From: Bacteroidales bacterium
Lineage (GTDB): Bacteria > Bacteroidota > Bacteroidia > Bacteroidales > F082
DNA: 42,346 nt
Direction: 5' to 3'
Assembly (NCBI GenBank): GCA_017428285.1
Contig: JAFRRE010000027.1
Span: forward strand, 1 to 42,346
The notes beneath the pieces were generated by a model. It ran no database searches. It was not told the origin of the DNA and was given only the letters and a program-made list of their open reading frames with translations. Shown here piece after piece: positions 1 to 33,686 of this stretch (positions within the stretch are counted from its first letter, which is position 1; each line of letters opens with the position of its first letter). A program made the translations under genes and the position numbers.

Positions 1-2257
1 AATGGGGATATTCTACGGGAAGTGGGTCGAGGCCATGGTGTTCGCGGTTGGTCCGGATATACTCGATGGCGTTGTAGAGGTGTTCGTCGGAGTTGATATA
101 GGTATTGCCGAATTTTCTTCCCCATAGGGAGCACTGCGTGATGCCTTTTTTCGGAAGATTGTCGTCCGGTAGGGTAGCGTCCGGTAGGGTCAGCGGGTCA
201 TGACCCGCTGTCGCTATCACGGTCGTACCTACCGGGCTCTTCGTCGTCGCTACTTTTGTCGACACCGTTCTGCCCATGGCGATATTCACGGCTCGCGCTG
301 TCATCGACTTTATCTTTCCCACTATTTTCGGCACTTCTTCTTCCTCGCACACAAGCAATAAGTGCATGTGGTCGAAGCAGATGTTGTAGGCAAGAACGTT
401 CAGCTTGTCTTCCTCCACAATCTTCGCCACGGTCTCCGTGATGATGATTTCCTCTTCCGTGCTCAAAAGCATCGGCTCAGGGTAAGGTCGTGTGCCGTGG
501 TCGCGAAGCCGCCTCACGTCGTATTCTATCATTCTATCGGAAGTTCGGCTATCGTGAACGGCCGTGGTGATATGCCATGGTCGCTTTTGCTTTTCACGGA
601 AGATTTTCGGGAATTCCTTCTCCCAACAGAAGGCCTTGTCGCCAGCAATGGTTGGATCATCGATGAGGGAGTTGCCGCATTTGATGTTGTTGTTGAGCGA
701 GTTCAGTTTGCGGTGGGGCTTGGCGGTGCGGAGCCACAATGACAGCTTGGCAATCTCGACGCTCTCTTCGTTGATGTCTACACCGTAGAGGTTGTTTTCC
801 AAGATGGAGTTTTCGACGTTGGGGAACACGATGGCGGCACCCTCGACCTTGGCCTGCATCTCATCGATGAGCTTGTGCTCGGCGATGAGGAAGTTCAAGG
901 CAGCATTGAGGAAGGCACCACTTCCGCAAGCGGGATCGCAGATGGAAATCTGCAGGAGCCAGTCGCGGTAGGCCTCCAGCTTCTCGATGAGGGCCTTTTT
1001 GGTGGCCACCTGGCGTTTTTTGTCGGTGAAGTACTCGCTTTCATCGATACCGAGTTCCGCTTTCTTTTCGCGACAGAGCTTGCCTACGGTGTTTTCAACG
1101 ATGTACTTGGTGATGTATTGTGGTGTATAGAAAACGCCGTCTTTCTTGCGCTTGCTGATGGTGGGCGCTTCGCCCTGCTGGAGCTTGGTGGTAATTTCTT
1201 CAATCTCGGTCAGCGAGTTCTCGAAGATATGGCCAAGGATGTTGACATCGACATCGCTCTGGAAGTCGTAGTCGGAAATCTTCTTACAGTAGCACATCAG
1301 CACTTCATCGGAGATGATGAGACCGTCAAGGATTTCATCCGGCTTGAAAAGACCGCCATTGTAGGCAAAGACCTCGTAGTTCTTGCCTTGAAAGCCAGTG
1401 TTCATGTAGCCGAAATATTTCTTCAGACGATTGTAAAACGGCTGGTATTCGTCAAGGTCTTTCAGCTTCTCCCACTGGTTGATGATGAGCATGATGGAGT
1501 TGGGTGGCAGCAGCCCACGGTCTTCGGCGAAGAAGATGAAGAGCAGCCTGTCGAGGAGTTTCTGAGTCTTTTTGAACAATAAAATCTTATGCTCCGTGTC
1601 GTCGGTCGGGTTGTGCTGAACGATGTCTTCAAACAAATCTCGCTTGAAGTTGGAGTAGTCCTTATAGAGGGCGTTGGTTATCTGGTCTTCATTAGTGAGG
1701 CTGGCTGCCTTGATTTGCTTGGGGAGATTCTTGGCGATGTTCTCATATGCCAGGCATATCCAAAGCCGAGCGAAGTCATCGCGTGTGAGGCGAAACAAGT
1801 CAAACTCCTCGAAGTCAACGGCGTTGTCGATGTAGAAACGCAGCTTCTCGAAGTTGGAGATGACTACGTAGACGGCTTCTTTGTGCTGGCTCTTATAGTT
1901 GAAGGCCTGAGCCTCAACTTTGCTAAGGTCAGGCGTTTTGTGGTCTTTCAGCTCAATCACACCCACAACCTTGCCATCGACAAGAATGGCACCATCGGCT
2001 TTTTTGCTGTTGGTCTCGTTTTTCTTTTCGGTGGTAAGGTTGAAATTTGGGTCGGGATTCAGAGTGTAGCCGAGAATCTTCACAAACAATTCGCGAAGGA
2101 AACCTTCTTGGAACTGCTCTTCCTTGCTGTTGAGGATATTGGCCTGCCTTTCAGGATCCAGGAAGAAGTTAGTGAAAGTCTTGTATCGCTCATCAATCAG
2201 CGTGTTATCAAGACCTTCAATGTATTTGTTGAGGATATTGTGTTGGAAGATTTGCAT
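1..2257 (-). CDS. Eco57I-like restriction-methyltransferase with embedded RAYT domain (5' part)
   Basis: The minus-strand frame is open from an ATG at 2257 to the left edge, so at least 752 residues are coded and the C-terminus lies outside the window. Residues about 85-120 carry a PD-(D/E)xK nuclease pattern (ADGAILVDG, then IELKD, then a Q in AQAFNYK). About 375-395 read GVFYTPQYITKYIV (methylase motif X region) and about 440-455 read CDPACGSGAF, the SAM-binding motif I of N6-adenine methylases. This matches single-chain type IIG enzymes that cut and methylate DNA. Where the NPPY motif is expected, after EKEFPKIFRE (about residue 550), the frame continues instead into a RAYT/Y1 transposase-like domain: HITTAVHDSR, an HUH motif DHMHLLL near residue 630, and NAIEYIRTNREHHGL near 735. 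A palindromic repeat at about 163-236 is translated inside this domain. Known: Eco57I methylases and RAYTs are separate families. Inferred: a fusion or in-frame insertion. The start is the first ATG after the upstream terminator. Confidence 0.85.
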   Translation of the reverse strand, partial: MQIFQHNILNKYIEGLDNTLIDERYKTFTNFFLDPERQANILNSKEEQFQEGFLRELFVKILGYTLNPDPNFNLTTEKKNETNSKKADGAILVDGKVVGVIELKDHKTPDLSKVEAQAFNYKSQHKEAVYVVISNFEKLRFYIDNAVDFEEFDLFRLTRDDFARLWICLAYENIAKNLPKQIKAASLTNEDQITNALYKDYSNFKRDLFEDIVQHNPTDDTEHKILLFKKTQKLLDRLLFIFFAEDRGLLPPNSIMLIINQWEKLKDLDEYQPFYNRLKKYFGYMNTGFQGKNYEVFAYNGGLFKPDEILDGLIISDEVLMCYCKKISDYDFQSDVDVNILGHIFENSLTEIEEITTKLQQGEAPTISKRKKDGVFYTPQYITKYIVENTVGKLCREKKAELGIDESEYFTDKKRQVATKKALIEKLEAYRDWLLQISICDPACGSGAFLNAALNFLIAEHKLIDEMQAKVEGAAIVFPNVENSILENNLYGVDINEESVEIAKLSLWLRTAKPHRKLNSLNNNIKCGNSLIDDPTIAGDKAFCWEKEFPKIFREKQKRPWHITTAVHDSRTSDRMIEYDVRRLRDHGTRPYPEPMLLSTEEEIIITETVAKIVEEDKLNVLAYNICFDHMHLLLVCEEEEVPKIVGKIKSMTARAVNIAMGRTVSTKVATTKSPVGTTVIATAGHDPLTLPDATLPDDNLPKKGITQCSLWGRKFGNTYINSDEHLYNAIEYIRTNREHHGLDPLPVEYPH
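163..236. repeat. REP-like nested palindrome inside the RAYT coding region
   Basis: Bases 191-210 form a perfect 20-base palindrome (CAGCGGGTCA / TGACCCGCTG). It is flanked by two direct copies of CGTCCGGTAGGGT ending near 176 and 190, and by an inverted arm CCTACCGG at 228-235, giving a nested hairpin. The frame of the surrounding gene stays open across it and codes a low-complexity Thr/Pro/Asp-rich stretch. RAYT proteins are known to process REP hairpins, so this is a candidate substrate-like element lying in the RAYT domain itself. Confidence 0.7.
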
Positions 2258-5990: not shown

Positions 5991-7316
5991 TTATTTCTTA
6001 GGTGCTCCTCCACCGAAGTCATCATACAAGATGTTCTCGGGCGCCACACCCAAATTGTCAAGCATTTTGACCACGGCAGCACTCATCGGGCCGGGACCGC
6101 ACATGTAGTACTCGATGTCCTCGGGAGCTTTGTGGTCCTTCAGGTAGGTGTCGTACAACACATTATGCACAAAACCGGCAGTATATTTCACACCCTGTGC
6201 ATCGGCAGCGGGGTCGGGACGGTCCAAAGCCAAGTGGAAATGGAAGTTGGGGAAGACTTTCTCCAACTGCAGGAAGTCTTGCAGATAGAAGACCTCGTTC
6301 AAGGCACGAGCGCCATAGAAGTAATGCATTTCGCGGTCCCTTACATTCAAGGTACGTGTCAAATGCATGATTTGTGCGCGCAAAGGTGCCATACCAGCAC
6401 CGCCGCCCACCCAAATCATTTCGGGCAATTGTGTAGGGCTGTCACACTGTGGCAGCCGTACATTATTGGCCGAATGATCCTTGACGTGAAATTCTCCATA
6501 AGGTCCTGACATGATAACCTTATCACCCGGTTTCAACGAGAAGATATAGGATGAGGCAATGCCCGGATTGACATTCATGAATCCCGAACGATCGGGGTTG
6601 AAAGGTGGCGTTGCGATGCGCACCGTCAGCATAAAGACATCGCCCTCGGCGGGATAGTTGGCCATCGAATAGGCACGGATGGTGGGTTCAGTGTTGACGC
6701 ATCGCAGGTCAAACATCTTGAATTTCTCCCACGAAGATAGGTATTCCTCCCCTATTAGTTCCTTGTCGAAGTCGGCATATTTGATGTCGAACTTCGGTAT
6801 CTTAATTTGTGCGTATGAGCCAGGCACGAAGTCCATGTGCTCACCGGCGGGCAGCTGCACCTTGAACTCCTTGATAAAAGTGGCCACGTTGCGGTTGCTG
6901 ACCACCGTGCATTCGTATTCTTTCACGTTTAGAATCGACTGCGGCACCACGATTTTCAGGTTTTCCTTTACCTTCACTTGGCACCCCAAGCGCCAATGGT
7001 CTTGAATCTGCTTGCGGGTGAAGAATCCTACTTCGGTAGGCAGAATTGTTCCGCCTCCTTCCACTACACGGCATTTGCACTGGCCGCACGAGCCTTTGCC
7101 ACCACAGGCAGAAGGCAGATACACTTTCTGTTCGGCCAGCGTGGCAATCAGCGTGTTGCCCGTCGGGACGGTCAGCACTTTGTCGTCGTTGATGGTGATT
7201 TTCACTTCACCTTTGGGCATGAGTTTGTTACGCACCCATAGCAACAGGGCAACAAGCAGCAAGACGATGCCTAAAAAAACAACAATGCTAAGTAATATAT
7301 TGGTTGTAAAATCCAT
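5991..7316 (-). CDS. nqrF: Na+-translocating NADH:quinone reductase subunit F
   Basis: NqrF is the electron input of Na+-NQR: it oxidises NADH with FAD and passes electrons to a [2Fe-2S] cluster. The 441-residue product starts with one membrane helix (about 6-28). The cluster cysteines are C71, C77, C80 (ACGGKGSCGQC) and C112 (RLGCQ). The flavin motif RAYS is at 214-217 and the NADH-binding segment GGGAGMAPLRAQ near 310-320. The C-terminus has CGPGPM and a terminal DDFGGG, as expected for this reductase fold. It starts 4 bases after nqrE and is the last nqr gene, with frdC 21 bases downstream. Confidence 0.96.
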   Translation of the reverse strand: MDFTTNILLSIVVFLGIVLLLVALLLWVRNKLMPKGEVKITINDDKVLTVPTGNTLIATLAEQKVYLPSACGGKGSCGQCKCRVVEGGGTILPTEVGFFTRKQIQDHWRLGCQVKVKENLKIVVPQSILNVKEYECTVVSNRNVATFIKEFKVQLPAGEHMDFVPGSYAQIKIPKFDIKYADFDKELIGEEYLSSWEKFKMFDLRCVNTEPTIRAYSMANYPAEGDVFMLTVRIATPPFNPDRSGFMNVNPGIASSYIFSLKPGDKVIMSGPYGEFHVKDHSANNVRLPQCDSPTQLPEMIWVGGGAGMAPLRAQIMHLTRTLNVRDREMHYFYGARALNEVFYLQDFLQLEKVFPNFHFHLALDRPDPAADAQGVKYTAGFVHNVLYDTYLKDHKAPEDIEYYMCGPGPMSAAVVKMLDNLGVAPENILYDDFGGGAPKK

Positions 7317-11573: not shown

Positions 11574-13018
11574 TACAATCCCTCCTTTCTCAGTTTTTCC
11601 AAAGCCTCTCGGATGATGGCTTGGATGTCGGTTTTGGATGTGTCGATGAACTCACAAAGGGCGAAGTCTTCGGGCTCGACCTCGTAAATGCCCAAGTTCT
11701 CCATCAGCTCGATGTCGCCGATGATGCAGGCCTTGATGAGTTGAGTGGGATAAATGTCGAAGGGGAAGACCCGTTCGAAATTGCCCGTGAAGACCAAGGG
11801 GCGCAAGTCGCCGTGGGTGTTGGTGTCGAATTTCCAAAGGTTTTCGAAACGCGGTAGCTCGATGCCCATGGGCTTGAAGGTGCTTTTCGGCATGAAGCCA
11901 CTGAGGAAAGTGCGCGAGAAGCTGAACTTCCTGAAGCCAGGCATCAGCCAGCCCATGAAGTCGTAATAGTCGCCTTCGGGCAGGATGCTCACCAAGTCAT
12001 CGTAGGCACTCAGAAAACCATCAGCGGCGATTTGCGTGCCGCTCAGGATGTCGCCCGAAATGACGCGGTTTTCCATCGTGGCATCGTTGGCATCCATCTT
12101 AGGATATTCATTGTTAAGCAGTTGTGCTTTGGTAATCTCATCCAGACAAGCCCCAAACCTTACACGGTAATAATGTGGGTTCTTGATATTGGGTCCAGCT
12201 ACAGCGACAGCGCGCTCAGGCTTGTAAATGCCCGTGGCAACCAATTCACCCAACACGGCAACGTCCTGAAGGTTCATCGTCCAGATGATTTCTCCTTTAT
12301 TAATAGGGTCAATGTAGGCGATTTGTGTGCCGATGTTTCCAGCAGGATGAGGGCCGTTTATAAAGTGGATGTTGAACTGTTGATTGTTTAATTGTTTAAT
12401 TGTTGAGGCAAGATGCTGATTGGGACGGAAACAAATATGGACTTTTCCACTCGTCAATTTAGCCAGCGCCTCAAGGCCTTTTTTGAGTGCCTCTTCCCTA
12501 CCCCGCATAATGAAATCATAATCAGGTGCCAGAGGTGCACTACTGAAAGCGCTGACGAAAATGGCCTTTGGCTTGTCATCAGGGTTGGCGACGGTGCCAA
12601 AAGGCCGTTGACGCAATTGAGGCCATAGACCACTTTGCAGCATGGCTTCTTTGATTGCATCTGCCGTAGTCAAAGCCGCTGTCGCGGATTTATAATCCGC
12701 GATGGTCGAGCCTGCGGATTTGCAATCCGCTTCCACAACCACCTCCAAAAGCTTGCGTTTCTCGCCTCTCACGATGGCCTTCACCTGACCGCTGACGGGT
12801 GAAGTGAAGCGGATGCGTTCATCGTTCTTGTCGCAAAACAAGGCATCGCCGACAGCCACCCTATCGCCTTCCTCAACCAGCAATCGCGGCGTGAGACCCA
12901 CAAAGTCAGTGGGCTTCATGGCGTAGGTCGTGATGCTGCGCGCATCGGTGAGGCGTTTCTCAGCCGCTCCACTGATGGGCAGGTCGAGACCTTTCCGTAT
13001 CGTTATGGTCTCAGACAT
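11573..13018 (-). CDS. nqrA: Na+-translocating NADH:quinone reductase subunit A, with in-frame repeat insertions
   Basis: NqrA is the membrane-bound quinone-handling subunit of Na+-NQR, related to RnfC. The 481-residue product is about 30 residues longer than the usual 445-450. Family segments include GLDLPISGAAEK at the start, the lipoyl/biotinyl-like SPVSGQVKAIVRGEKRKL near 75-92, GLWPQLRQRPFG near 130, APLAPDYDFI, and GPHPAGNIGTQIAYIDPINKGE. The extra length falls at two places that coincide with dispersed repeats: ADCKSAG..IADYKSA (about 97-112, bases 12682-12730) and TIKQLNNQQ (about 205-215, bases 12371-12408). Both keep the frame. The gene follows the ferredoxin-like gene by 1 base. 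Confidence 0.95.
   Translation of the reverse strand: MSETITIRKGLDLPISGAAEKRLTDARSITTYAMKPTDFVGLTPRLLVEEGDRVAVGDALFCDKNDERIRFTSPVSGQVKAIVRGEKRKLLEVVVEADCKSAGSTIADYKSATAALTTADAIKEAMLQSGLWPQLRQRPFGTVANPDDKPKAIFVSAFSSAPLAPDYDFIMRGREEALKKGLEALAKLTSGKVHICFRPNQHLASTIKQLNNQQFNIHFINGPHPAGNIGTQIAYIDPINKGEIIWTMNLQDVAVLGELVATGIYKPERAVAVAGPNIKNPHYYRVRFGACLDEITKAQLLNNEYPKMDANDATMENRVISGDILSGTQIAADGFLSAYDDLVSILPEGDYYDFMGWLMPGFRKFSFSRTFLSGFMPKSTFKPMGIELPRFENLWKFDTNTHGDLRPLVFTGNFERVFPFDIYPTQLIKACIIGDIELMENLGIYEVEPEDFALCEFIDTSKTDIQAIIREALEKLRKEGL
12371..12408 (-). repeat. A/T-rich dispersed repeat, translated inside nqrA
   Basis: On the minus strand the stretch CAACAATTAAACAATTAAAC, then AATCAACA, also occurs between the anti-sigma-like gene and the hydrogenase-like gene (20985-21012), base for base over about 28 positions. 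In nqrA it is read as STIKQLNNQQ. Similar shorter words fill 20131-20173. Confidence 0.8.
12682..12730. repeat. Paired REP-like palindromes translated inside nqrA
   Basis: Two adjacent palindromes, TCGCGGATT-TAT-AATCCGCGA (12682-12702) and GCGGATT-TGC-AATCCGC (12714-12730), are separated by 11 bases. They code the repetitive peptide ADCKSAGSTIADYKSA on the minus strand. Short palindromes of this GGATT..AATCC form are common dispersed repeats in Bacteroidota. Confidence 0.85.
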
Positions 13019-15599: not shown

Positions 15600-15610
15600 A
15601 TAGACGGTTT

Positions 15611-15684
15611 GTAGGGCTGTCGTACCACGGCAGCCGCTTATCGCATATTGCGGAATAGCGGCTGCCACGATGTGACAGCCCTAC
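15611..15684. repeat. Long REP-like hairpin between DRTGG and PHP genes
   Basis: Outer arms GTAGGGCTGTC (15611-15621) and GACAGCCCTAC (15674-15684) pair perfectly, as do inner arms GGCAGCCGC and GCGGCTGCC (around 15629-15637 and 15658-15666). The hairpin fills the intergenic gap. No T run follows, so it is more likely a dispersed palindromic repeat than a terminator. Confidence 0.85.
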
Positions 15685-15696
15685 AGCCACATCGTT

Positions 15697-22402: not shown

Positions 22403-22424
22403 AGTGCATCGTTATATTATCACA

Positions 22425-22458
22425 AAAACGGCCGTCCTCGGATGAGGGCGGCCGTTTT
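22425..22458. terminator. Bidirectional terminator between converging genes
   Basis: AAAACGGCCG (22425-22434) and CGGCCGTTTT (22449-22458) pair, with CCTC/GAGG extending the stem. It has an A run on one side and a T run on the other, so it can end both the hydrogenase-like operon (plus) and the C10 protease gene (minus). Confidence 0.9.
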
Positions 22459-22478
22459 CATCTAAGCATCACAGTTGA

Positions 22479-25400
22479 TCATTCCTTGCGCTTACCGCCG
22501 AGGATAACATCCTTGGCTTTCGCTCCCGTCTGAAAGATCAGGGTCTTCTCCTCATCGCTATTGGAATAGTACATGATGCCAAATCCGGGTTCAAACGCCT
22601 CCATATCCCCAAACCACTCGCCATCATACTCCGTCATACCGTAGTCGGTTTGGATTCGGTCTCCTTCTGCAGCCTCGAAACCGGCAAGGGCAGCATTGAC
22701 TTCGATTGCCTCGGCGCTCGGGAATCCAATAAAGTTCCAACCCTTATGGATGGGGATCTCGTAATCGCCGACATTCGCAGGCGCACCCGTCAGCACCACC
22801 GTGCATTCATTAATAACATTAACGAAGTATCCCTTCTCGTTCGCTAAACCGATCTCATCCAAGTCACCGAACCACTCCTCGCCGTCATACTCCGTCATGT
22901 AATCCTCAGACTGGATTCCCGTAGCGTTCTCGCCAAGCGATGCCTCCAGCATGTCAAGCATCCCAACTGGATCCTCTACCGCAAGGTAAGTGCTGATCAA
23001 GTTCCAACCTTGAGAAAGGGTGATGGTTTGTGCCACCGCCGGAGTATTGATGCCAAGGATTATCTGGTTCTTCACAGAGAAACGAGTGCCGCTATATTCT
23101 GAAGGATTGTAAGGATCGTAGTTGGTATTGTCACTATAAACACGAATGGACTGATAACCTTGACTATTAAACACCCGACAAGCCATGCCACCATAATAGT
23201 ATCCCATGTTGTCATCAATAACAATAGCAAGGTTGGATGTGCCATCGTAGGCAAACGGCGTGTCAAGGACAATGGTGGTCCAGTATCCTTTTGTCATAAC
23301 CACATTGCCACTAAATACAAGGTCGGCCTCTGTAACTGGAATCCAATCTTTGTTGTTATCGAAAGTGGTCTTACTGGTATGCACCAAGTAGATGTTATAC
23401 TTGCGCGTCTGGGTATAACCAGCGTTGAAATATGAAATGGAGGTAATGCTTCCCGCAGTACCTATCTCATCTGGTGTATATATCTGTTGGGAAAGGCTAT
23501 ATCTCCAATATGAATGGCTCGGCAGAGACTCGTTTGATGATTCGCCTTGTCCTATTAGTATCCCTTCAATGGGCATAAAGATTGCCTCAATCTCAGCCTC
23601 TTCAGTCACTGCAAAACTATAGGTGGCGTTGCAACTGACCACCTCGCCATTCTTGCTCCAGTTCAGGAACAAATAGCCTTCATTTGGAGTTGCACTCAAC
23701 GTACAGGTGCTGCCGTAATCAAAAGAGCCTGCTCCTGTGGTGGTTCCTCCTTCGGCTATATTGGGTGTAACAGAAATAGCCAAAGGTAGTGTGAAACGAG
23801 CCTCTAAATTGCGATCGGATGTGACAAGGAAAGAATAGGTGGCATTGGTCGAGACCTGCTGACCATTCTCTAACCAGAAGCAGAATGTATAACCCACGTT
23901 GGGCGTAGCAGTCAGCGTGACAACCGTGCCACTCTCATACGTACCCGCACCTTCCACAACACCGCCCTCTATGGGATCGGCAACAGCAGTAATGGTGCGA
24001 GGCGCAGTGGCAGTCGCACAGTTGACATAAAGCTCTTGCTGGAAATTGGCATTCAGACTCGAGCCATGGTATATCGGAACATCATTTTCAAACTTAATGT
24101 CGAATGAGCATCGGTTGGCATATGTGCCTTCAATCCATGACAAGTTAATAGTACTACCAGTTGCAACCTCACGGGAATAGGAAGCCGATGAACCATTTTC
24201 CAAAGTAAACTGTTCGGAAGTGCCATCACTATAATCTACGACCAAGTAGTTACCACTCCAACCATTTTGGTAAGAGACGTGCAAATCAAAGACAATAGTG
24301 CATGTTGATTCGCCTTCAACAAAGTTGGCCACCAAGTTCCTGTCGCCATTGACTGTGAAAGAATAGTCGGCATCGTACGTCACCACTCCACCATCCTCTG
24401 TCCAATTCAGGAAGTAATACCCAGCATTAGGCGTGGCAGTCAAGGTGCAAGTCATTCCATAAGGATAGATACCTCCACCGCTTACCGTGCCACCTTCAAC
24501 AGGATTGGCTGTAGCTGTGACTGTTTTGGGTTGACGGAACACAACTTGGTTCTTCTCAGTCATGAGCGTACCCGTGTAACCAGATGGATTGGTAGGGTCA
24601 TAATCCGTACCATTAGAGCCATAGATGCGAATAGCTTGGTTGCCTTCCGTCCCGAATGTGCGACAACTTGTTGATAAATTATAGCTGCTTGAATTGTCGT
24701 CTACAATCAGTGCGACATTGGACGTGCCGTCATACTGAAATGGTGTGTTGAAACAGACGGTCACCCAGCTGCGGGAAGTCAAAGTGACATCGCCAGTGAA
24801 CACCAAATCATTTTCGGAAACAGGAATCCAATCGGAAGTACCTGTAAATGAGGTTTTATCAGTGTGAACCAAATAAACATTCCAATTACGAGTTCTGCTA
24901 GAACTACCAGTATTGAAGAATGATACGCTAGAGATTTCAACTGCAGTCCCTCCCATTTCATTTGAGGTGTAGATTTGTTGCGTTAGGGAATTGTAATAAT
25001 AAGTAGGAAGATATGAGCTGGTGTAGGTGCCATCTCCAATCACTATGCCCTCCGGTTTCAATTCAAAATGAGCCACATATTCCGCCGATGCTGTCACAGT
25101 CAGGTTGTATTTGGAAGTATAGGAAACTATTGTTCCATTCTTGGCCCAGTGGCTGAAAATGTAACCCTCATTGGGTATGGCGGTAAGGGTGATGGGTTGG
25201 TTGAGGTAGCACAGGCCTCCTCCACTTACCGTGCCGCCCCCTTCGGAACCGACAGAAGCAGTCACCGTATAATCATAGCTGGGAATGCCAAAAATGACTT
25301 GATTCTTCACGTTCATGCGTGTACCTGTATAACCAGTTGTATTGTACGGGTCATAATCCGAGTTACCGTAGACGCATATAGCCTGGTTGTCTTCCGTCCC

Positions 25401-27386
25401 GAATGTACGACAATTACTAATTGTATAGCTTTTCGAATTGTCATCCACAATTAGGGCGACATTGGATGAACCATCATATAGGAATGGCGTGCTGAAATAG
25501 ACGGTTGTCCAATTATGGGCAGTCATGGTTATGCTGCCGCTAAACACCAAATCGTTTTCCGAAACAGGAATCCAATCGGAATTGCTCTCAAACGAGGCCT
25601 TATCGGTATTGACCATATAGACATTCCAATTGCGAGTGGAACTATAATTATTCGTGTTGAAGAATGACACGCTGGAGATTTCGGTTGATGTTCCACCCAT
25701 TTCACTCGCGGTGTAGATTTGCTGCGTCAGGGAATAATAATAATAGGAAGGAAGATAGCCATTGGCGTTGGTTCCATTTCCTATCACTATACCATCCACC
25801 GGTTCGAAATACGCCACATATTCCGCAGGCTCAGTTACGTTCATGTTCAATGTGGAAAGGTATGAAAAATCCACACCGTCCTTAGTCCACTTGTAGAACA
25901 CATAACCTTCATTGGGCGTTGCCGTGAGGGTGACTTGCTGATTATAGTGGCAAATCCCACCTTCGCTCACCGTTCCTCCTGCCGCGGGATTAGCCGAGGT
26001 GGTGATATTGAATGGTAGTCCAAAATGAGCTACCAGATTTCTATCGTTCATAGCTATGAAGGAGTAGGAAGCTTCAGAGGAAACCTGCTCACCATCTTCG
26101 GTCCAATACATGAAGGAATAATCTCCAATAGCAGTTGCTGTCAATGTGCAGGTCTCTCCACAATCGTATGTACCTGCACCGCTAACGGTTCCTCCATTTG
26201 AAGGGTCAGTTGTAGCTGTTATCTGATAGGTCGTGCCTGCTGTGCAGCCAGGACGAATGTTGATGATGGCAGCATTACTGACATTAAATGCATAACCTTG
26301 AACATTTAAAGCTCCATTGGCAAAATAGCCGTTTGAAGTACCTCCCCATCCCCAGTTAAAGTGCAGAAAGTCGTTGGAGTCATAGCCATCACAGACAAAG
26401 GCGTGACCGCCTCCCCCATTTGCATCTGAACCTCTATAATGAATAGGACAACTCAAATCAAGACAACTCTTCATTAAAGCCAACCAATTAGAATCGGTAT
26501 AATTGTCCCTGTAAACGATGCTCAACTCGTTGGAATAACCGAAATAGTTCAACAAAGCCGATGGGATATACGAGGAGGATGCTCCGGAACCATAGGGGCC
26601 GTAATCCATATCAACTGCCACACCACAATGCCACATCAGAGTAGAAACCGCATCGACTTGGGTTGAAGAAGATGAGGAAGACAAGCTATTGGGCATATTA
26701 GCCCAGTCGTATGTGGTCGCGCCAAAATTGGCTGTCTGTTGAGGATATCCATAAGGAGTATAAGTATGCGATCCCATACCTTTAGTAGGATAGCCCCAAT
26801 AGTGTAAAATCTGCGCAAAAGAAGTTGCAACACAGCCTGTTACAACATGTCCGCATGGACCATTTGGATTAGAAGGACATTTGTTGTTATAATAACAGCC
26901 TTGACTCCATGTGTCGGTCAGCAAAGGTGCAACGGCTGTAGTGGCTCTTTGCTCGATGAGATGGCCGATAGCCCGGACCATCTCCCACTGCCGCGCCGTG
27001 GCTTCATCGGCTTCTAAATGGTTTTCGATACCATATTGTATCTGATTCACAAAGCCTTGAAAATAGTCTTGCAATTGGATTGGAATGTCATCTGCGTCAA
27101 ACGGACCTTCATCGGAATAGGCAAGTATAGGCTTGGCGCAGTCATCGGCCGAAACGATGACAAAGCCGTTGGGTGTGTTGAAAATGTGGAAGGCCGCATC
27201 GCCTCGGGAAATGTTGTAGGTGGTCACCCATTGGAGATCATCAGTGCTTCTTAATGGGGTTTTCGCATTAGCATTCATGAACTTCACCGCCACTTCGCGG
27301 GCAGTGCGCATGTCTACAGGATTGGCTTCTGCTGTAAATACGGCTGTCAGCAGGAGCATCGTTAGGGTAAGGATTCTTTTTTTCAT
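22479..27386 (-). CDS. Secreted C10 (streptopain-like) cysteine protease with repeat modules
   Basis: The 1635-residue protein has a signal peptide (about 1-21, cut near AEA-NP), a streptopain-type propeptide (about 22-140) and a C10 protease domain (about 150-378) with the nucleophile Cys185 in VVTGCVATSFAQ and His328 in GGGGHAFVCDGY. Then follow alternating modules: InlB-like repeats of about 70 residues (pattern GGTVSGAGTY..LTATPNEGY..W..NG) and three roughly 175-residue modules with the signature SQQIYT or TQQIYT, plus one FDLHVSYQNGWSGNYLVVDY module. The last about 180 residues are the duplicated GWN module shared with three neighbouring genes, ending in a basic GGKRKE tail. C10 enzymes of Streptococcus and Bacteroides cut host proteins. 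Extracellular or surface location is inferred; no classical T9SS C-terminal signal was recognised. Confidence 0.9.
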   Translation of the reverse strand: MKKRILTLTMLLLTAVFTAEANPVDMRTAREVAVKFMNANAKTPLRSTDDLQWVTTYNISRGDAAFHIFNTPNGFVIVSADDCAKPILAYSDEGPFDADDIPIQLQDYFQGFVNQIQYGIENHLEADEATARQWEMVRAIGHLIEQRATTAVAPLLTDTWSQGCYYNNKCPSNPNGPCGHVVTGCVATSFAQILHYWGYPTKGMGSHTYTPYGYPQQTANFGATTYDWANMPNSLSSSSSSTQVDAVSTLMWHCGVAVDMDYGPYGSGASSSYIPSALLNYFGYSNELSIVYRDNYTDSNWLALMKSCLDLSCPIHYRGSDANGGGGHAFVCDGYDSNDFLHFNWGWGGTSNGYFANGALNVQGYAFNVSNAAIINIRPGCTAGTTYQITATTDPSNGGTVSGAGTYDCGETCTLTATAIGDYSFMYWTEDGEQVSSEASYSFIAMNDRNLVAHFGLPFNITTSANPAAGGTVSEGGICHYNQQVTLTATPNEGYVFYKWTKDGVDFSYLSTLNMNVTEPAEYVAYFEPVDGIVIGNGTNANGYLPSYYYYSLTQQIYTASEMGGTSTEISSVSFFNTNNYSSTRNWNVYMVNTDKASFESNSDWIPVSENDLVFSGSITMTAHNWTTVYFSTPFLYDGSSNVALIVDDNSKSYTISNCRTFGTEDNQAICVYGNSDYDPYNTTGYTGTRMNVKNQVIFGIPSYDYTVTASVGSEGGGTVSGGGLCYLNQPITLTAIPNEGYIFSHWAKNGTIVSYTSKYNLTVTASAEYVAHFELKPEGIVIGDGTYTSSYLPTYYYNSLTQQIYTSNEMGGTAVEISSVSFFNTGSSSRTRNWNVYLVHTDKTSFTGTSDWIPVSENDLVFTGDVTLTSRSWVTVCFNTPFQYDGTSNVALIVDDNSSSYNLSTSCRTFGTEGNQAIRIYGSNGTDYDPTNPSGYTGTLMTEKNQVVFRQPKTVTATANPVEGGTVSGGGIYPYGMTCTLTATPNAGYYFLNWTEDGGVVTYDADYSFTVNGDRNLVANFVEGESTCTIVFDLHVSYQNGWSGNYLVVDYSDGTSEQFTLENGSSASYSREVATGSTINLSWIEGTYANRCSFDIKFENDVPIYHGSSLNANFQQELYVNCATATAPRTITAVADPIEGGVVEGAGTYESGTVVTLTATPNVGYTFCFWLENGQQVSTNATYSFLVTSDRNLEARFTLPLAISVTPNIAEGGTTTGAGSFDYGSTCTLSATPNEGYLFLNWSKNGEVVSCNATYSFAVTEEAEIEAIFMPIEGILIGQGESSNESLPSHSYWRYSLSQQIYTPDEIGTAGSITSISYFNAGYTQTRKYNIYLVHTSKTTFDNNKDWIPVTEADLVFSGNVVMTKGYWTTIVLDTPFAYDGTSNLAIVIDDNMGYYYGGMACRVFNSQGYQSIRVYSDNTNYDPYNPSEYSGTRFSVKNQIILGINTPAVAQTITLSQGWNLISTYLAVEDPVGMLDMLEASLGENATGIQSEDYMTEYDGEEWFGDLDEIGLANEKGYFVNVINECTVVLTGAPANVGDYEIPIHKGWNFIGFPSAEAIEVNAALAGFEAAEGDRIQTDYGMTEYDGEWFGDMEAFEPGFGIMYYSNSDEEKTLIFQTGAKAKDVILGGKRKE

Positions 27387-27409
27387 ATTGTTTGGGTTTG
27401 TTTGTGGGA

Positions 27410-27439
27410 CAAAGTTAGAGAAAAAAAATCAATTATCAA
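27410..27439 (-). promoter_or_regulatory. Promoter of the C10 protease gene
   Basis: On the minus strand TTG (27437-27439), 19 bases, then TAACTTTG (27410-27417) fit the Bacteroidota -33/-7 pattern, 24 bases before the ATG. Confidence 0.65.
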
Positions 27440-27486
27440 GGGGTTTGACGAAACTTTCGAGAGATTGACTTCATCGAATGCGAAGC

Positions 27487-27503
27487 ATTTCCCTGCGGGA
27501 AAT
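27487..27503. repeat. Short palindrome ATTTCCCTGCGGGAAAT
   Basis: A 17-base palindrome with neighbouring GAATGCGAAGC in the gap between the two protease genes; it resembles other dispersed palindromes in the window and has no T run. Confidence 0.5.
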
Positions 27504-27529
27504 CTCCTCACGCTCCGGAAGCCGCCAAC

Positions 27530-27565
27530 AAAAACAGCCACCCTCTTTCGAAAGCGGCCGTTTTT
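27530..27565 (-). terminator. Terminator of the 1952-aa gingipain-like gene
   Basis: Read on the minus strand, AAAAACGGCCGCTTTCGAAAG leads into GGCTGTTTTT: a slightly imperfect hairpin with an inner CTTTCGAAAG palindrome and a T run, 20 bases after the stop at 27585. It is a diverged member of the GGCCG terminator set. Confidence 0.75.
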
Positions 27566-27584
27566 ATCAAATCATCACAAAAGA

Positions 27585-30500
27585 TTATTCCTTGCCCTTC
27601 AGTGAAATGACGCTCTTGCCTCCCGCTGTCGTGGAAAAGACTAAAGTCTTCGGTTCGGTGCTGTTCGAATAGTACATGATGCCAAATCCGGGTTCAAACG
27701 CCTCCATGTCGCCAAACCACTCGCCGTCATACTCCGTCATACCGTAGTCGGTTTGGATTTGGTCTCCTTCTGAAGCCTCGAAATCGGCAAGGGCAGCATT
27801 GACTTCGATTGCCACGGCGCTCGGGAAGCCAATAAAATTCCAACCCTTATGGATGGGGATCTCGTAATCGCCGACATTCGCAGGCGCACCCGTCAGCACC
27901 ACCGTGCATTCATTAATAACATTAACGAAGTATCCCTTCTCGTTCTCTAAACCGATCTCATCCAAGTCGCCGAACCACTCGCTGCCGTCAAACTCCGTCA
28001 TGTTATCCTCTGACTGGATTTCCGTAGCGTTCTCACCAAGCGACGCCTTCAGCATGTCAAGCATCTCGATCGGATCCTCTACCGCAAGGTACGTGCTGAT
28101 CCAGTTCCAACCAGCGGACAGTTCTATCGTCTGCGTTGTCGATGTCATGAAACCAAGGATAATCTGGTTCTTGACAGAATAGCGTGTTCCAGAATAACTT
28201 GAAGGAGCGTACGGGTCGTAGTTGGTACCGTCGCTGTAAACGCGAATGGCCTGAATGCCGTTGGCATTGAACACACGACATGCCATGTGAGGAGCACCCG
28301 TATAACTTCCTGTATTATCATCAATGACAATGGCGAGATTTGAAGAACCATCATAGGCGAACGGAGTGTCAAGAACGATGGTAGTCCAATAACCTGTAGT
28401 CATGTTCACACTGCCACTATACACAAGGTCGGACTCAGAAACTGAAATCCAATCGGCATTGCTTACGAATGCCGTCTTTTCTGTATATACCATGTAGATG
28501 TCATAACTGCGGGCCTCAGGTCCACCTGCATTGAAGTAGGAAATAGAACGAATGACACCGGTCTCTCCTATTTCATCAGGCGTGTAAATCTGCTGAGAAA
28601 GGGTATAGCTGTAATAGGAATAGCTAGGCAGATATTGGTTCGTCGACTCGCCTTGTCCGATGAGCGCACCTTCAAGGAGCATGAAGACCGCCTCAATCTC
28701 AGCCTCTTCTGTCACGGAGAAACTGTAAGTAGCATTACAACTGACCACTTCGCCGTTGTTGCTCCAGTGCAGGAACAGATAGCCTTCGTTCGGGGTGGCT
28801 GTCAGCGTGCAGGTATTGCCTAAGTAATACTCTCCTCCTCCTGTAGCGGTTCCTCCTTCGGCCATATTGGTCGTAACGGTAATGTTCATTGGCAATGAGA
28901 ATCGAGCTACCAGATTGCGGTCGGTTGAGACAAGGAAGGAATAGCTTGCATCTGCCGAAACTTGCTGCCCATTTTCAGACCAATAGCAGAAACCGTAACC
29001 TACGTTGGGCTCAGCAGTCAGCGTGACAAGCGTGCCGCTCTCATAGGTTCCTGCACCTTCCACAGTACCGCCCTCTATAGGATCGGCAACAGCAGTAATG
29101 GTGCGTGGCGCAGTGGCAACCGCACAATTGATGTTGAGTTCTTGCTGGAAACTCGAGTTGAGACCTGTTTTGTGGTATATCAGAACACCGTTATCAAACT
29201 TGATGTCAAAAGAGCACTCACCTATATAAGAGCCCGCAATCCATGTCAAGGCAATATCGCTTCCTGTTTCGACTGATCGAGTATATGAAGCCGACGAACC
29301 GCTTTCAATGGTGAATTGCTCGGAATTGCCGTCGCCATAATCAACGACCAAGTAATTGCCGTTCCATCCATCGCCATAAGAGTCATGCAAGTCAAAGACA
29401 ATGTTGCACATGGATCCTCCTTCCACGAAGTTAGCCACCAAATTTCTGTCTCCATTGACGGTGAAAGAATATGTGGCATCGTAGGAAACCGCAGTACCAT
29501 CCTCAGTCCAATTCAAAAAGTAATAGCCCGTGTTAGGCGTAGCTGTCAAGGTGCAAGTCGCACCTTGGGAATAGGCACCAGCACCGCTAACTGAACCGTA
29601 ATCAGTTGGATTGGCAGTGGCTGTGATATAATAAGGTAAACCAAGTATAATCTGGTTTTTCACCGACATGAGGGTTCCATTGTATTCTGAAGGATCGTAG
29701 GGATTGTAATTGGTGTCATCGTTATAAACACGTATGGCTTGGCTCCCTTCAGTATTAAACACACGACATGTCATGTTGCTATAATCCCAGTAACCTGTGT
29801 TATCATCCACAATAAGGGCAAGATTGGATGTGCCGTTATAGGAGAAAGGTGTGTTGAAGACAATTGTAGTCCAATTATTATTCCTCATTGTGACACTTCC
29901 CGTGAATACCATATCTGCTTCGGTAACAGGAATCCAGTCATTGGTGTTTTCGAAAGTAGACTTGTCTGTATGAGCCATATAAATTGTATAGGTACGGCTT
30001 TTCTGTGCACTAGTATTGAAGAAAGATATGCTTGAGATTTCGCAAGCCGTTCCTATTTCATCAGAGGTATAGATTTGCTGAGACAAAGTGTAATTATAAT
30101 AAGAGTAACTGGGGAGATAGTAGTTTGACAATGCGGCATCACCAATAGCGATGCCATTAGAGACCAATTGGAATTCCGCCACATATTGAGCGTTGCTTGT
30201 CACAGTGAAATTATAGGTTGATAGGCCCGAAACGGGTGAGCCATTCAAAGTCCACCTGAGAAACACGTAGCCTTCATTGGCAGTTGCAGTAACCGTAGCA
30301 GTGGTTCCGTAATCATACTCGCCTGTACCTGACACTGTGCCGCCTTCCATTGGATTGGCGGATACTGATATACTGAGAGGCAAGGAGAAATTAGCGACCA
30401 GGTTGCGGTCGGTTGCTACAGTAAAAGAATAACTGGAATTGTTTGACACCACACTACCATTTTCAGTCCAATACATAAAGGTGTACTCACCTGACGATGA

Positions 30501-33443
30501 TGCGGTCACAGTGCATGTCATTCCAGGAATATATTTTCCTTCTCCAGCAACTGTGCCGCCGTTTTCCGGGTTTGCCACGACGGTGATAATGGTGTTTCTT
30601 AATACCTCTGAACCTTCAGCATATAAATTGCCATCGGCATTCAAGGTGAATGTGATTGGTATTATTTCCGTGTCGGGACAATCGGAAGCGATAACGACAT
30701 CGAATGTGCATTCAACTTGCGAATTGGCCTCCAATGTGCCCACCTCATAAGTCTCGTTGACTATAGTGAGATATTGGCTTGGGGAAGCGATGTGTGCGAC
30801 TGTATTGGCAGCCATATAGTGGCCATTGTTCTTGAATGTGGCAGTAAGGGTCAGCGTTTCTCCCGCATCGAACATCTCTGCCCATGACATACCTACATAT
30901 ACAGGTACGGCTTGGATTGCCTTGATGACCAACTCTCCTGTCCATGTTTCTTCCCCACAAGTCATGGTGACATTGAGGTGGAATCTTGTATTGTCTGGAA
31001 CATTTTGTGCTATGATGAAACTGAATTCATTTTCCAACGAAACGACTTGATTGCCACCCAGTGCACCAAATTGGCCTATTCCGTCTATAATGGTCAGTCT
31101 GTCATCATTTGAATTAATGGTTACATAAGTTGTACCTGATGTAGCATCCAATCCAACATTCCTGAAATTCACGCTAAGCGAAGTTTGCTGATTGACAGGA
31201 GTGGCATTGGGAGTATAGCTATCAACCACCATGTATGATCCTGCTGCTGGCACCACCTCAATGGTGTCTTCATAACGAAGATAGTCTTGTCCCGTAACCA
31301 CAATATTTATAACCGTAGGAGGCGCTTGGGGCTCAAACTCGACTGTTTGCGAGCTACCTGTAGCCGTAGCCACAGCAAGAATGTCCCAGCCTCCGTCTAA
31401 ATTAGCTTTCACTATACTGATTGTACATCCTTCCGGTGCCGAAACCGAAATGGAACTGCCACCTGCGACAATCGCAGAGGTATGCGCTACCTCCATCGTC
31501 CTTGGCACTTGGGTATATAGTCTCAAGAAAGCATCGCAGTGAGCAGTGAACATCTGATAAGTAATAACTTTCACACTGGAGCCACTAGTCCATGAACTTT
31601 GTTGAAGGAAATACTTTCCTGCGACATTACCAAAGGCGGGTTGCCAGTTACCGTGATAATTGGCGTAAGGGCCATAATTAGGAAGAAAATCAGGATCGTA
31701 TTGGTCCATCAATCCCCAAACGTAGGTATCATTGACAAACGAATAAGAGGTCTCTGTAGGTCCAAGACAGCCCACTGCACCGGCATTTTGGCCATTGTAG
31801 GTGCGTCGCATGAAAGCTTCGATAAGACAGTCTGAATCATAGTATGAACTATAGTCAAAGGTACCTGTCTTACAATTGATGGTGTTTACGAAGGTCAACT
31901 TGCCTACATTAGTCATCTGATTGACATTGCTATTGCTGAATACCGGTTGGCCCCATCTTTGATAGCTGCCATGATCGCGGTGCTGGAGCATCATTGTCCC
32001 ATTGTTTACTGCATTGACAACATCAGCCCCTGTGCCTCCAGTCCAGCCTCCAAGTTCATTAGGAGATGCAGGAATATAACCTTGTCCGTTAGGGCCAAAG
32101 TAATTGACTACTGTAGACGTATTTGAGGCGGATGACCAAATATCGGCAGGTGCTGGGAATTCATAAATCTCGTTGATACGAACAGGATGTTTTCCTTGAT
32201 TCCTCCAATAGCCTCCCACAACTTCCGAACAAAGCTGGAACCAACGCTCGGTTTGCCAGCCCAAGGCCGTGACAGGATGGTCGTATGATGATGCATCCAT
32301 GTTGGGATTGCTGAATTCGTATTCAATCTGCTTGCTCACCATCATCTGGGCTTCAGTGGCATTAGCAGCTACAAGTCGCGAAAACACCATATCCGGCAGG
32401 TTGTCGCCCGTTGGGTCGGCATAGCCGTTGTCGCTAATGCACGAGCCTCCCTGAGGATGCGAAACCGTTTCGGCAGGGATAAATTGACTCATATCAGTAC
32501 CATGGTCGCCAAAAAGCAACACAGCCACAGGGGGTATCGTCCAAGTGTTATAGGCATTGTGGAACCAAGCTTTCATCTCATCAATGGAGGATGCGGGCAT
32601 TTCATCAAGACGATACACCTCGGTCAGAATGCCTTGGCGTGTGCGGTAGTTCTTAAGTTGGTTGGCATACTCGGCCCAACCGTCGTTGTTAGGCGTGATG
32701 ATAAGGTATTCTGCACCGTCAGCATCATCGCGCAACCATTGCTGCATACGGGCAGTATAGTCGATGACAGGAAGCTGATCGTAGTTCATCAACTCAGCAG
32801 CGAGAATAGGATCCCAATAAGGAGAGCGTAAACGGTCGTCACCAAAATGGCCATTACCTCCTTCGAAGCTCACAGAAAGCTCGATATTGGTATACACCCT
32901 CAATTCCTTGGTCACAGGATTGTACTGGAAGGGTGAAATCGACACGGCCACGACATCTACACCACGAATAGAAGACCTATCAATCGTGAAGGGTTGTTCT
33001 GGATAAAAGGCATTTTTCTCATAAACATCCCGGTTTTTCACGTAATTGAACTCTGGTTCCTCGCTTTCAGCTTGGATTCGCAGGGCGGGAGCGACATTAA
33101 CGTCCCTGACGACTTCACTCTCGGCATTGATGATGTTCAGCCGTGCATTTGCGCCTTGAGGAATCGCTAGCATACGGCTCTCAACGGGCAAGTCCGGACA
33201 GCCTTCGATATTTGGCAAGACCATGCCCGAAATGCTGATCTCGGACATGTCTTCTCCTCGATAGTTAAGTTGTCTCAGCGAAAACTGGCCTAAATTGTAG
33301 TTGACATGCAACCCGTCTCTGGTCTTCTCTGATATGGAAAAACCTTGTTTCCCTTTTACTGGATACGTAAAAGTCTGTGCCATTGCAAGATTGGAAAAAA
33401 ACGCAATCATTGCAATAAAAATCATTTGTGGGACTCTTTTCAT
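27585..33443 (-). CDS. Gingipain-like C25 cysteine protease with repeat modules (1952 aa)
   Basis: The signal peptide covers about residues 1-22 (NLAMA-QTF). A C25-type propeptide (about 23-235, IPQGANARLNI and SPYWDPILAAELMNY) precedes the protease domain (about 244-620), with the likely catalytic His491 in LQHRDHGS and Cys524 in NTINCKTG, matching the His-Cys dyad of Porphyromonas gingipains. An Ig-like region follows, then InlB-like repeats, two SQQIYT modules (about 1095-1265 and 1595-1765), one FDLHDSYGDGWNG module (about 1350-1460), and the duplicated GWN C-terminal module (about 1770-1952) ending in a basic LKGKE tail. Gingipains are surface or secreted proteases that digest host and dietary proteins. 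The protease half is close to that of the 2309-aa neighbour, so the two arose by duplication; their C-terminal modules are far more alike than the protease halves. Confidence 0.92.
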   Translation of the reverse strand: MKRVPQMIFIAMIAFFSNLAMAQTFTYPVKGKQGFSISEKTRDGLHVNYNLGQFSLRQLNYRGEDMSEISISGMVLPNIEGCPDLPVESRMLAIPQGANARLNIINAESEVVRDVNVAPALRIQAESEEPEFNYVKNRDVYEKNAFYPEQPFTIDRSSIRGVDVVAVSISPFQYNPVTKELRVYTNIELSVSFEGGNGHFGDDRLRSPYWDPILAAELMNYDQLPVIDYTARMQQWLRDDADGAEYLIITPNNDGWAEYANQLKNYRTRQGILTEVYRLDEMPASSIDEMKAWFHNAYNTWTIPPVAVLLFGDHGTDMSQFIPAETVSHPQGGSCISDNGYADPTGDNLPDMVFSRLVAANATEAQMMVSKQIEYEFSNPNMDASSYDHPVTALGWQTERWFQLCSEVVGGYWRNQGKHPVRINEIYEFPAPADIWSSASNTSTVVNYFGPNGQGYIPASPNELGGWTGGTGADVVNAVNNGTMMLQHRDHGSYQRWGQPVFSNSNVNQMTNVGKLTFVNTINCKTGTFDYSSYYDSDCLIEAFMRRTYNGQNAGAVGCLGPTETSYSFVNDTYVWGLMDQYDPDFLPNYGPYANYHGNWQPAFGNVAGKYFLQQSSWTSGSSVKVITYQMFTAHCDAFLRLYTQVPRTMEVAHTSAIVAGGSSISVSAPEGCTISIVKANLDGGWDILAVATATGSSQTVEFEPQAPPTVINIVVTGQDYLRYEDTIEVVPAAGSYMVVDSYTPNATPVNQQTSLSVNFRNVGLDATSGTTYVTINSNDDRLTIIDGIGQFGALGGNQVVSLENEFSFIIAQNVPDNTRFHLNVTMTCGEETWTGELVIKAIQAVPVYVGMSWAEMFDAGETLTLTATFKNNGHYMAANTVAHIASPSQYLTIVNETYEVGTLEANSQVECTFDVVIASDCPDTEIIPITFTLNADGNLYAEGSEVLRNTIITVVANPENGGTVAGEGKYIPGMTCTVTASSSGEYTFMYWTENGSVVSNNSSYSFTVATDRNLVANFSLPLSISVSANPMEGGTVSGTGEYDYGTTATVTATANEGYVFLRWTLNGSPVSGLSTYNFTVTSNAQYVAEFQLVSNGIAIGDAALSNYYLPSYSYYNYTLSQQIYTSDEIGTACEISSISFFNTSAQKSRTYTIYMAHTDKSTFENTNDWIPVTEADMVFTGSVTMRNNNWTTIVFNTPFSYNGTSNLALIVDDNTGYWDYSNMTCRVFNTEGSQAIRVYNDDTNYNPYDPSEYNGTLMSVKNQIILGLPYYITATANPTDYGSVSGAGAYSQGATCTLTATPNTGYYFLNWTEDGTAVSYDATYSFTVNGDRNLVANFVEGGSMCNIVFDLHDSYGDGWNGNYLVVDYGDGNSEQFTIESGSSASYTRSVETGSDIALTWIAGSYIGECSFDIKFDNGVLIYHKTGLNSSFQQELNINCAVATAPRTITAVADPIEGGTVEGAGTYESGTLVTLTAEPNVGYGFCYWSENGQQVSADASYSFLVSTDRNLVARFSLPMNITVTTNMAEGGTATGGGEYYLGNTCTLTATPNEGYLFLHWSNNGEVVSCNATYSFSVTEEAEIEAVFMLLEGALIGQGESTNQYLPSYSYYSYTLSQQIYTPDEIGETGVIRSISYFNAGGPEARSYDIYMVYTEKTAFVSNADWISVSESDLVYSGSVNMTTGYWTTIVLDTPFAYDGSSNLAIVIDDNTGSYTGAPHMACRVFNANGIQAIRVYSDGTNYDPYAPSSYSGTRYSVKNQIILGFMTSTTQTIELSAGWNWISTYLAVEDPIEMLDMLKASLGENATEIQSEDNMTEFDGSEWFGDLDEIGLENEKGYFVNVINECTVVLTGAPANVGDYEIPIHKGWNFIGFPSAVAIEVNAALADFEASEGDQIQTDYGMTEYDGEWFGDMEAFEPGFGIMYYSNSTEPKTLVFSTTAGGKSVISLKGKE

Positions 33444-33535
33444 AATAAAAACAGTTTAAATGAAACGAAAATGGTTACTATTTAGATAATAAAAACATAT
33501 TCCACAGCCCAGCAGTGTTAGTTGTAATTTTATCA

Positions 33536-33569
33536 GCAAATATAGAAATAAAACTGATATGTTGCAAAA
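33536..33569 (-). promoter_or_regulatory. Promoter of the 1952-aa gingipain-like gene
   Basis: On the minus strand TTTTGC (33564-33569), 19 bases, then TATATTTGC (33536-33544) match the -33/-7 consensus almost exactly. The ATG is about 93 bases downstream, so the leader is fairly long. Confidence 0.8.
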
Positions 33570-33631
33570 GAAACATTGGAAAAAATAGATCAAGAATGGA
33601 ATAACATCGCCTATCACTCCATATAACACAC

Positions 33632-33667: not shown

Positions 33668-33686
33668 ATCCAATCTTCACTGATAA

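Follow-up and report, generated by a model that had tools for sequence, protein, structure and literature searches.

A RAYT-like HUH domain held in frame inside predicted Type IIG restriction-modification enzymes of Bacteroidota, and the hairpins concentrated in the genes that carry it

REP-associated tyrosine transposases (RAYTs; REP, repetitive extragenic palindrome) are a standard example of domesticated bacterial transposases. Palindromes are also known from within coding sequence, the Rickettsia palindromic elements being found in frame in protein genes and scattered over unrelated ones. Here we analyzed a gene at the left edge of a 42,346-base contig from a Bacteroidales bacterium (assembly GCA_017428285.1, contig JAFRRE010000027.1, positions 1 to 42,346; this whole stretch is called the window), in which a RAYT-like domain of the Y1/HUH type lies in frame inside a predicted Type IIG restriction-modification enzyme. 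Palindromes occur in frame in the fused genes as they do in Rickettsia, but here a single gene family is the main site, rather than many unrelated genes, and it encodes the candidate enzyme as well.

Like described Type IIG enzymes (PADLOC class REase_MTase_IIG; relatives of MmeI and Eco57I), the family combines a nuclease-like N-terminus, an N6-adenine methylase and a TaqI_C-type specificity part, but the fused enzyme carries a Y1/HUH domain between its methylase halves. It shares with the RAYTs (TnpA_REP, class 2 of the TnpAY1 proteins in PMC6006769) an HUH motif with one tyrosine, a fold match to 4er8 and, in the clade of the window gene, palindromes with GTAG-type feet; unlike them, the fused domain is no separate gene, scores under the curated RAYT model and has hairpins found predominantly within its host gene rather than in many copies around the genome. 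The same paper, which deals with stand-alone TnpAY1 classes and states that unexpectedly long fusion proteins were discarded from its set, describes REPs in frame within genes of subclass 2.4 (group 4 RAYTs), between the HUH and Y motifs, which is also where a palindrome lies in the window gene (positions 191-210). That subclass has NH[IFV]H and YIxNNP, whereas DH[MLIV]H and YIxxNR prevail here (DHMH and YIRTNR in the window), and the domain studied here is fused to a restriction enzyme, with hairpins also outside the Y1 part. The TnpA proteins of IS200/IS605 elements (ISDra2, IS608) have the same fold, and the HUH motif and tyrosine align with those of ISDra2; the common fused type differs from them in having no visible left or right ends. 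The available part of PMC11837570 lists the Type IIG enzymes of Flavobacterium psychrophilum and does not contain the word transposase, and no description of a fusion of Y1 with a Type IIG enzyme was found in the open-access literature as judged by titles and abstract openings.

The window gene is a single open frame of 752 amino acids counted from its ATG, which exits the window at the left edge; because the window is the entire contig, this edge is the end of the assembly and not a stop. Its features, on which the following comparisons rely, are these:

2..2257, minus strand: fused Type IIG frame, truncated on the left by the contig end (profile searches and homologue listing)
1946..1996, minus strand: PD-(D/E)xK-like nuclease residues D88, E102 and K104 (HSDR_N match)
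911..937, minus strand: methylase motif I DPACGSGAF, the S-adenosylmethionine (SAM) site, read from the sequence
ending at 599, minus strand: EKEFPKIF motif, read from the sequence
596..601, minus strand: joint, where F553 ends the first methylase half and R554 opens the insert (insert-less genes L071, L078 and L080; ends of matches to the fused homologue P0119; end of the PADLOC profile match at 554)
2..598, minus strand: Y1/HUH insert minus its last residues (Pfam, NCBIfam, Foldseek and insert alignments), with GGFD-NPPY beyond the contig end
362..373, minus strand: HUH motif DHMH, residues 629-632 (sequence, insert alignment and profile match)
137..262, minus strand: loop 666-707 between the HUH motif and the W/Tyr part, predicted disordered (pLDDT mostly 26-44)
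183..218, no strand assigned: REP-like element in frame in this loop, with the perfect palindrome CAGCGGGTCATGACCCGCTG at 191-210, GGTAG at 183-187 and a degenerate CTATC at 214-218
59..61, minus strand: putative catalytic Tyr733 in YIRTNREHHG (aligned with Tyr132 of ISDra2 TnpA)

Profile membership places the window gene among the Type IIG restriction-modification enzymes. Residues 1-553 form the first half of such an enzyme, matching PADLOC REase_MTase_IIG with 762 bits (residues 1-554 on positions 1-554 of a 1066-position profile), and Pfam adds MmeI_hel at residues 230-304, N6_Mtase at 406-531 and Eco57I at 488-557, the last covering profile positions 1-73 of 171 and being broken off mid-profile. 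HSDR_N, at residues 81-145, is barely above its cut-off (25.3 bits vs. 25.1); we take D88, E102 and K104 to be the putative catalytic site of the nuclease, and of 158 first halves compared from fused genes, 153 have an ExK-type motif. Past the contig end the enzyme can be followed in relatives: P0002, P0003, P0004, P0016 and P0018, which are 94-96% identical overall, continue in frame to GGFDVVIGNPPY, TaqI_C is detected in P0003 and P0006, and the fused relatives P0119 and P0003 match the Type IIG profile before as well as after the insert, through TaqI_C, where the window covers positions 1-554 only. Methylase motif I is read in the window itself and motif IV, NPPY, in the relatives.

Comparison with enzymes that lack the insert fixes its borders. 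Close insert-less enzymes read ...EFPxVF-EKGGFDVVIGNPPY and fused ones ...EFPxVF-[Y1]-AFRxEYxGGFDVVIGNPPY, and the insert-less sisters L071, L078 and L080 join exactly at the joint of the window gene; L071 matches the entire PADLOC profile. When P0119 was used as the reference, matches in insert-less genomes mostly ended at residue 551-555 (one at 546), and a strong second match began at residue 742 in three genomes. The module is fixed in frame at this one joint, after the first methylase half and before GGFD-NPPY. A first-pass annotation, made from the window sequence alone, had described one frame running from a nuclease-like N-terminus and motif I to EKEFPKIF and on into HUH and tyrosine motifs, placing a transposase domain downstream of the SAM site and ahead of NPPY. 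Every motif that it quoted was located in the frame, and the position of the HUH domain was borne out by the borders from insert-less homologues, the fold and profile matches, and the open frames and catalytic residues of relatives; the searches it had proposed returned both Y1_Tnp and Eco57I from Pfam, an exact joint after F553, and relatives running on to NPPY past the left edge with no stop. The interval it gave for the insert, 1..740, does contain it but is too wide, the part beyond 598 being the end of the first methylase half.

At E <= 1e-40 the enzyme was detected in 28 of 395 sampled Bacteroidota genomes, about 6 of which carry Y1 as judged from match coverage. In the homologue search, where 7634 of 7997 scored proteins passed E <= 0.001 and 120 were listed, Y1 occurred together with Eco57I in 119 of the 120 homologues among the matches listed, the exception being P0063. 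The 80 loci kept from 335 loci of relatives are mostly from Bacteroidota, with additional metagenome-assembled genomes of Ignavibacteria, Melioribacteraceae and Balneolia; about ten of them are insert-less or of a coil type, and named isolates among the hosts of these loci include Flavobacterium psychrotolerans, Jejuia pallidilutea and Pedobacter changchengzhani. In the coil type (L072-L077 and L171-L174) the joint is occupied instead by an unrelated stretch of about 73 residues that has a coiled-coil look when its sequence is read (YLKLIKEKSAEAQLKAEQGIALSKEALEITKQLAEYADKL), and the Y1 gene L053 nests within a clade of such genes in the first-half tree. In Kaistella yonginensis (L079) the joint holds just a short in-frame NTSLRGTKQS, which resembles a piece of another dispersed repeat.

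Sequence and structure comparisons agree on the Y1 nature of the insert. Pfam Y1_Tnp matches residues 601-658 with 29.7 bits (cut-off 23), and a profile built from 26 inserts retrieves ISDra2 TnpA by sequence (E 1.3e-7), with the HUH motif and Tyr132 aligned. Both histidines and the tyrosine are invariant in the alignment of these 26 diverse inserts; across distinct inserts, HUH is present in 157 of 158 and YxxNRxxH in 152 of 158, the remaining six still showing a tyrosine there by eye. Insert size ranges from about 167 to 280 residues between the methylase halves. An AlphaFold2 model of the window protein (35 alignment rows, mean predicted local distance difference test (pLDDT) 74, predicted template modeling score 0.50) had pLDDT 81-91 at residues 561-570, 601-660 and 711-740, 49-69 at 571-600, and poor confidence also at 491-560. 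Foldseek ranked MmeI at the top for this model (E 6e-5); the next matches, each at probability 1.00, were the TnpA of ISDra2, the RAYT of E. coli (4er8) and the TnpA of IS608, although the E-values of the Y1 matches start at 3e-3 and none is below 0.001. For a full-length fused relative the modeled structure is that of a methylase like CamA, BrxX and M.TaqI; all 50 structure matches listed for it were methylases and no Y1 protein was among them, so this comparison backs the methylase part only.

The first-pass annotation had called the insert a RAYT and had named a lack of structural match between residues 555-752 and Y1 transposases as a refutation. These residues do match, and the fold comparison, the alignment and the profile all indicate a Y1 domain that combines HUH with one catalytic tyrosine, as in RAYTs. 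Because the match to the NCBIfam model REP_Tyr_transpos (residues 595-752) scores 40.4 bits, under the curated cut-off of 80, we term the insert RAYT-like and not a proper RAYT. Other fused inserts behave similarly (L135, L070 and L170, 46-49 bits), and L166 alone passes, with 87.6 bits.

The fused genes are rich in hairpins. The REP-like element of the window lies inside the interval given by the first-pass annotation, which does not mention it; it had no match in 100 shuffles of the window, and in L001-L003 the degenerate CTATC is replaced by GGTAG on the coding strand. Of the 19 relatives' loops inspected, 18 contain a perfect palindrome 20 nt or longer, in many cases built as ACAANGGG-N4-CCCNTTGT, and that of L010 has one mismatched pair. 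Within 47 fused genes we counted 106 perfect palindromes (arms of at least 9), or 0.69 per kb, with at least one in 45 of the genes, compared with 25 in 515 kb of flanking DNA (0.049 per kb); the number per gene varies from 1 to 10, and so do the positions. A larger set from which exact repeats had been removed gave 137 palindromes in 62 of 64 fused genes, two having none at the threshold, whereas insert-less genes had palindromes in 1 of 42 cases (two palindromes, of another type), or in 2 of 43, none of the CAANGG type, when L167 is added by its sequence. Genes classed as other had them in 3 of 11 cases; this count includes L167, which is insert-less by sequence and has two palindromes of other kinds. 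Codon shuffling yielded 0.8 palindromes against 156 observed, in an earlier and partly redundant set in which L010/L117 and L134/L145 were counted twice. Taken together, these counts show that REP-like hairpins are concentrated in genes containing the Y1 module.

Within the genes the hairpins are unevenly placed. For 62 of the 64 fused genes (two without the anchor motif omitted; arms of at least 8), density was 4.7 palindromes per kb in the Y1 loop, 2.3 behind the tyrosine, 0.73 in the C-tail, 0.36 in the N-terminal part and 0.09 in the target-recognition domain (TRD), and the loop between HUH and tyrosine holds a palindrome in 46 of the 62. The set used to compare pair types was chosen at a minimum of 8 of 10 pairs, so pairing is built into the selection and the variety of pair types is all that is informative.

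Elsewhere in the genomes such hairpins are mostly few. The many genome copies of cognate REPs that mark RAYTs were not found for the CATG-centered pattern, which has 0 to 11 copies per genome across 27 genomes and any copy in 14 of them, with G029 as the exception (38 pattern matches vs. 4 in a reversed control). The search that gave the G029 counts took in eight genomes, and sites were told apart for five of them among the matches listed; of the 38 matches in G029, eleven fall on the part of the contig that holds the fused gene. A strict hairpin pattern was present in 16 of 395 Bacteroidota genomes and its reversed control in one; one of 16 short loci from the strict-pattern genomes is a fused gene, and in G057 and G085 a copy lies, by coordinates, at or directly behind the end of the fused gene, which in G085 reads as two frames. 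Strict-pattern totals were 43 in G314, 42 in G118 and 23 in G337; the listed sites of G118 and G337 are all TTGCAA-centered, G314 also has other centers, and the TTGCAA-centered copies may be another REP family. The fusion is the only Y1_Tnp (PF01797) match in G029 and in G535, a statement that is provisional since the genomes are drafts.

Y1 domains have been exchanged between enzyme backbones and are missing from close sisters. Explaining the Y1 label on a tree built from 101 first halves takes 19 changes (mean of 24.6 when shuffled), nine of which are forced by well-supported branches. The pair L046/L047 is 93% identical in the first half, 45% in Y1 and 41% in the C-terminal part, the pair L047/L057 66, 74 and 37%, respectively, and in 10 of 32 pairs with first halves at least 85% identical the Y1 domains are less than 65% identical. 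A single clade for the HITWVT-type Y1 (10 rows) is rejected on the first-half tree (log-likelihood difference 601, p of the approximately unbiased test 2.7e-6) while the Y1 tree is compatible with one origin; both trees contain long branches. The domains may have moved through homologous recombination or through the action of Y1 itself. L071 is insert-less yet lies beside Y1 genes, with a first half 85% identical to theirs. We also noted short proteins that may record the traffic: the stand-alone Y1 proteins P0124 and P0127 end in AFRTEY, which looks like a leftover of the fusion border, and P0121 (204 residues) has the first residues of the enzyme followed directly by the Y1 domain, as if the intervening part had been deleted in frame.

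An independent replicate of the fusion is provided by L166 from genome G535. Its insert, the one above the RAYT cut-off, is a different RAYT (NHVH, YIDNNP) at the same joint, flanked in frame by REPs on both sides, and 10 of the 16 REP matches in G535 fall inside the fused gene. On these sequence features, the joint was used independently by another RAYT, which arrived with its own REPs.

We think it somewhat probable that the gene is a Type IIG restriction-modification enzyme housing a RAYT-like HUH module that is putatively active and seeds hairpins mainly in cis. The Y1 domain would nick and join single-stranded DNA at hairpins, as do IS200/IS605 TnpA and RAYTs, and would act while its own gene is single-stranded in replication; new hairpins would be seeded mostly in cis, with only those copies surviving that land in frame in loops. 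The joint would be a loop tolerant of inserts, and the module would persist since the restriction gene around it is retained and inherited, the enzyme being its vehicle. This carrier reading accounts for the hairpins, the exchange and the dispensability of the domain. The fixed joint, the conserved catalytic residues, the purifying selection on the Y1 core and the replicate L166 also speak for it, as does the fusion being the only Y1_Tnp match in G535 and G029. The first-pass annotation had offered two functional guesses, a role in hairpin recognition or a selfish in-frame element, and our results lean to the selfish element with a putatively active enzyme, because hairpins gather in Y1-bearing genes and another RAYT reached the same joint with its own REPs. 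Several observations weigh against the carrier reading. L166 alone has REPs at both insert ends, the common type being without visible element ends; two of ten coil-type genes have hairpins, both of the CAANGG type; and G029 has hairpins also in MmeI-type genes without Y1, in an EcoRI-type methylase gene and in genes unlinked to restriction, so that the cis location predominates without being exclusive. The MmeI-type genes are L087 and L091, which hold four and two hairpins of the same type within their frames.

A lesser possibility, though one to be taken seriously, is that the HUH domain gives the defense enzyme a third, functioning activity, for example nicking single strands of replicating phage DNA, with the hairpins as a by-product. 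The Y1 core is under purifying selection and looks constrained like the surrounding enzyme: in 39 gene pairs with similar first halves (80%) and similar Y1 (65%), median dN/dS came to 0.073 in the Y1 core and 0.058 in the methylase half, from 33 and 26 usable pairs (dS 0.1-2.5), respectively, with the choice of pairs by Y1 similarity of at least 65% favoring low values. More than one kind of Y1 occurs with the Type IIG enzyme, and 8 of 48 insert-less or coil-type loci (609 kb) have a separate Y1-like open reading frame no more than about 5.5 kb away; in five cases (L080, where the two genes overlap, and L190, L195, L198 and L217) it follows immediately downstream with the same orientation. With no more than 131 such matches across 21 genomes (about 47 Mb), the expected number of same-strand neighbors within 100 bp is at most 0.003, compared with 4 observed. 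However, of the eight neighbor frames three are above the Pfam cut-off and one falls short of it, while the other four lack a Pfam match and are identified by their similarity to the L080 protein; relatedness among the genomes means that the neighbors are not fully independent events; and many close sisters, L071 among them, as well as most enzyme-bearing genomes are without Y1. Such a partnership accounts for the constraint and the neighbors, which fit a host function equally well and so count against the carrier reading; the two can both be true, and the host may benefit alongside the carrier role. In L080 the separate Y1 gene (11677-12633), its start overlapped by the insert-less enzyme gene, has a loop that encodes two copies of a 20-nt hairpin.

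The remaining explanations are much weaker. Autoregulation, in which Y1 would bind the hairpins of the gene or transcript that encodes it and thereby lower its own expression, fits the presence of hairpins in the gene that encodes Y1, nearly all fused genes having at least one near it, but we consider it improbable since the hairpins lie deep in the coding region at places and in numbers that vary. It is more improbable still that Y1 swaps the TRD by way of surrounding hairpins. Some fused genes do have hairpins on both TRD sides, and the TRDs differ in 20 of 26 fused pairs with first halves at least 85% identical, but insert-less genes exchange them as often (52 of 55 such pairs). A first signal for this idea, 31 of 54 fused vs. 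0 of 619 insert-less pairs (first halves at least 95% identical), was discarded, the insert-less query having included the start of one TRD; with the set picked by first half alone the equal exchange indicates that Y1 is not needed for TRD shuffling, though it could raise the rate. Throughout this enzyme family, whether Y1 is present or not, swapping of the TRD cassette that lies between NPPY and a conserved C-tail is very frequent. Finally, an inert remnant or an artefact, from chance in-frame insertion or chimeric assembly, might be suspected from the truncation by the contig end and the score under the NCBIfam cut-off; it is refuted by the architecture shared among the listed homologues and found in named isolates, the low dN/dS and the conserved catalytic residues, and we give it next to no credence.

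The window also holds other repeats. Four long segments at 22411-41500, 86-90% alike over 300 nt and spaced about 5.1-7.3 kb, form a family of repeat-rich genes, with similar hairpins (AAAACGGCCGCCCTC...) at 22424, 27530, 33632 and 40893, and 72-nt periodic repeats occur at 34399-36050. Repeats of TGTAGGGCTGTC at 6432-6458, 15610-15638 and 15657-15685 form inverted pairs with a GTAG-type foot and are perhaps another REP family; their 12-mer has three exact copies in the window and five with at most 2 mismatches, where 2.3 are expected.

What emerges is a RAYT-like domain locked into a defense enzyme, swapped between backbones, whose presence tracks hairpins in the same gene, so that two questions become testable in one protein, the movement of hairpins in cis and the use the host makes of the enzyme. 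For annotation, it matters that in the sources some fused proteins bear a name that reflects a single half and others a name that reflects both, and an N6-adenine methylase loop that accepts whole foreign domains would be of use for protein engineering. These results suggest that a small mobile element lives inside a defense gene without breaking it. More tentatively, RAYT-type elements may have adopted Type IIG enzymes as carriers, with the HUH domain as a built-in third activity that spreads hairpins in the carrier gene and may add a single-strand anti-phage activity; if so, the element and the defense system would be one selective unit.

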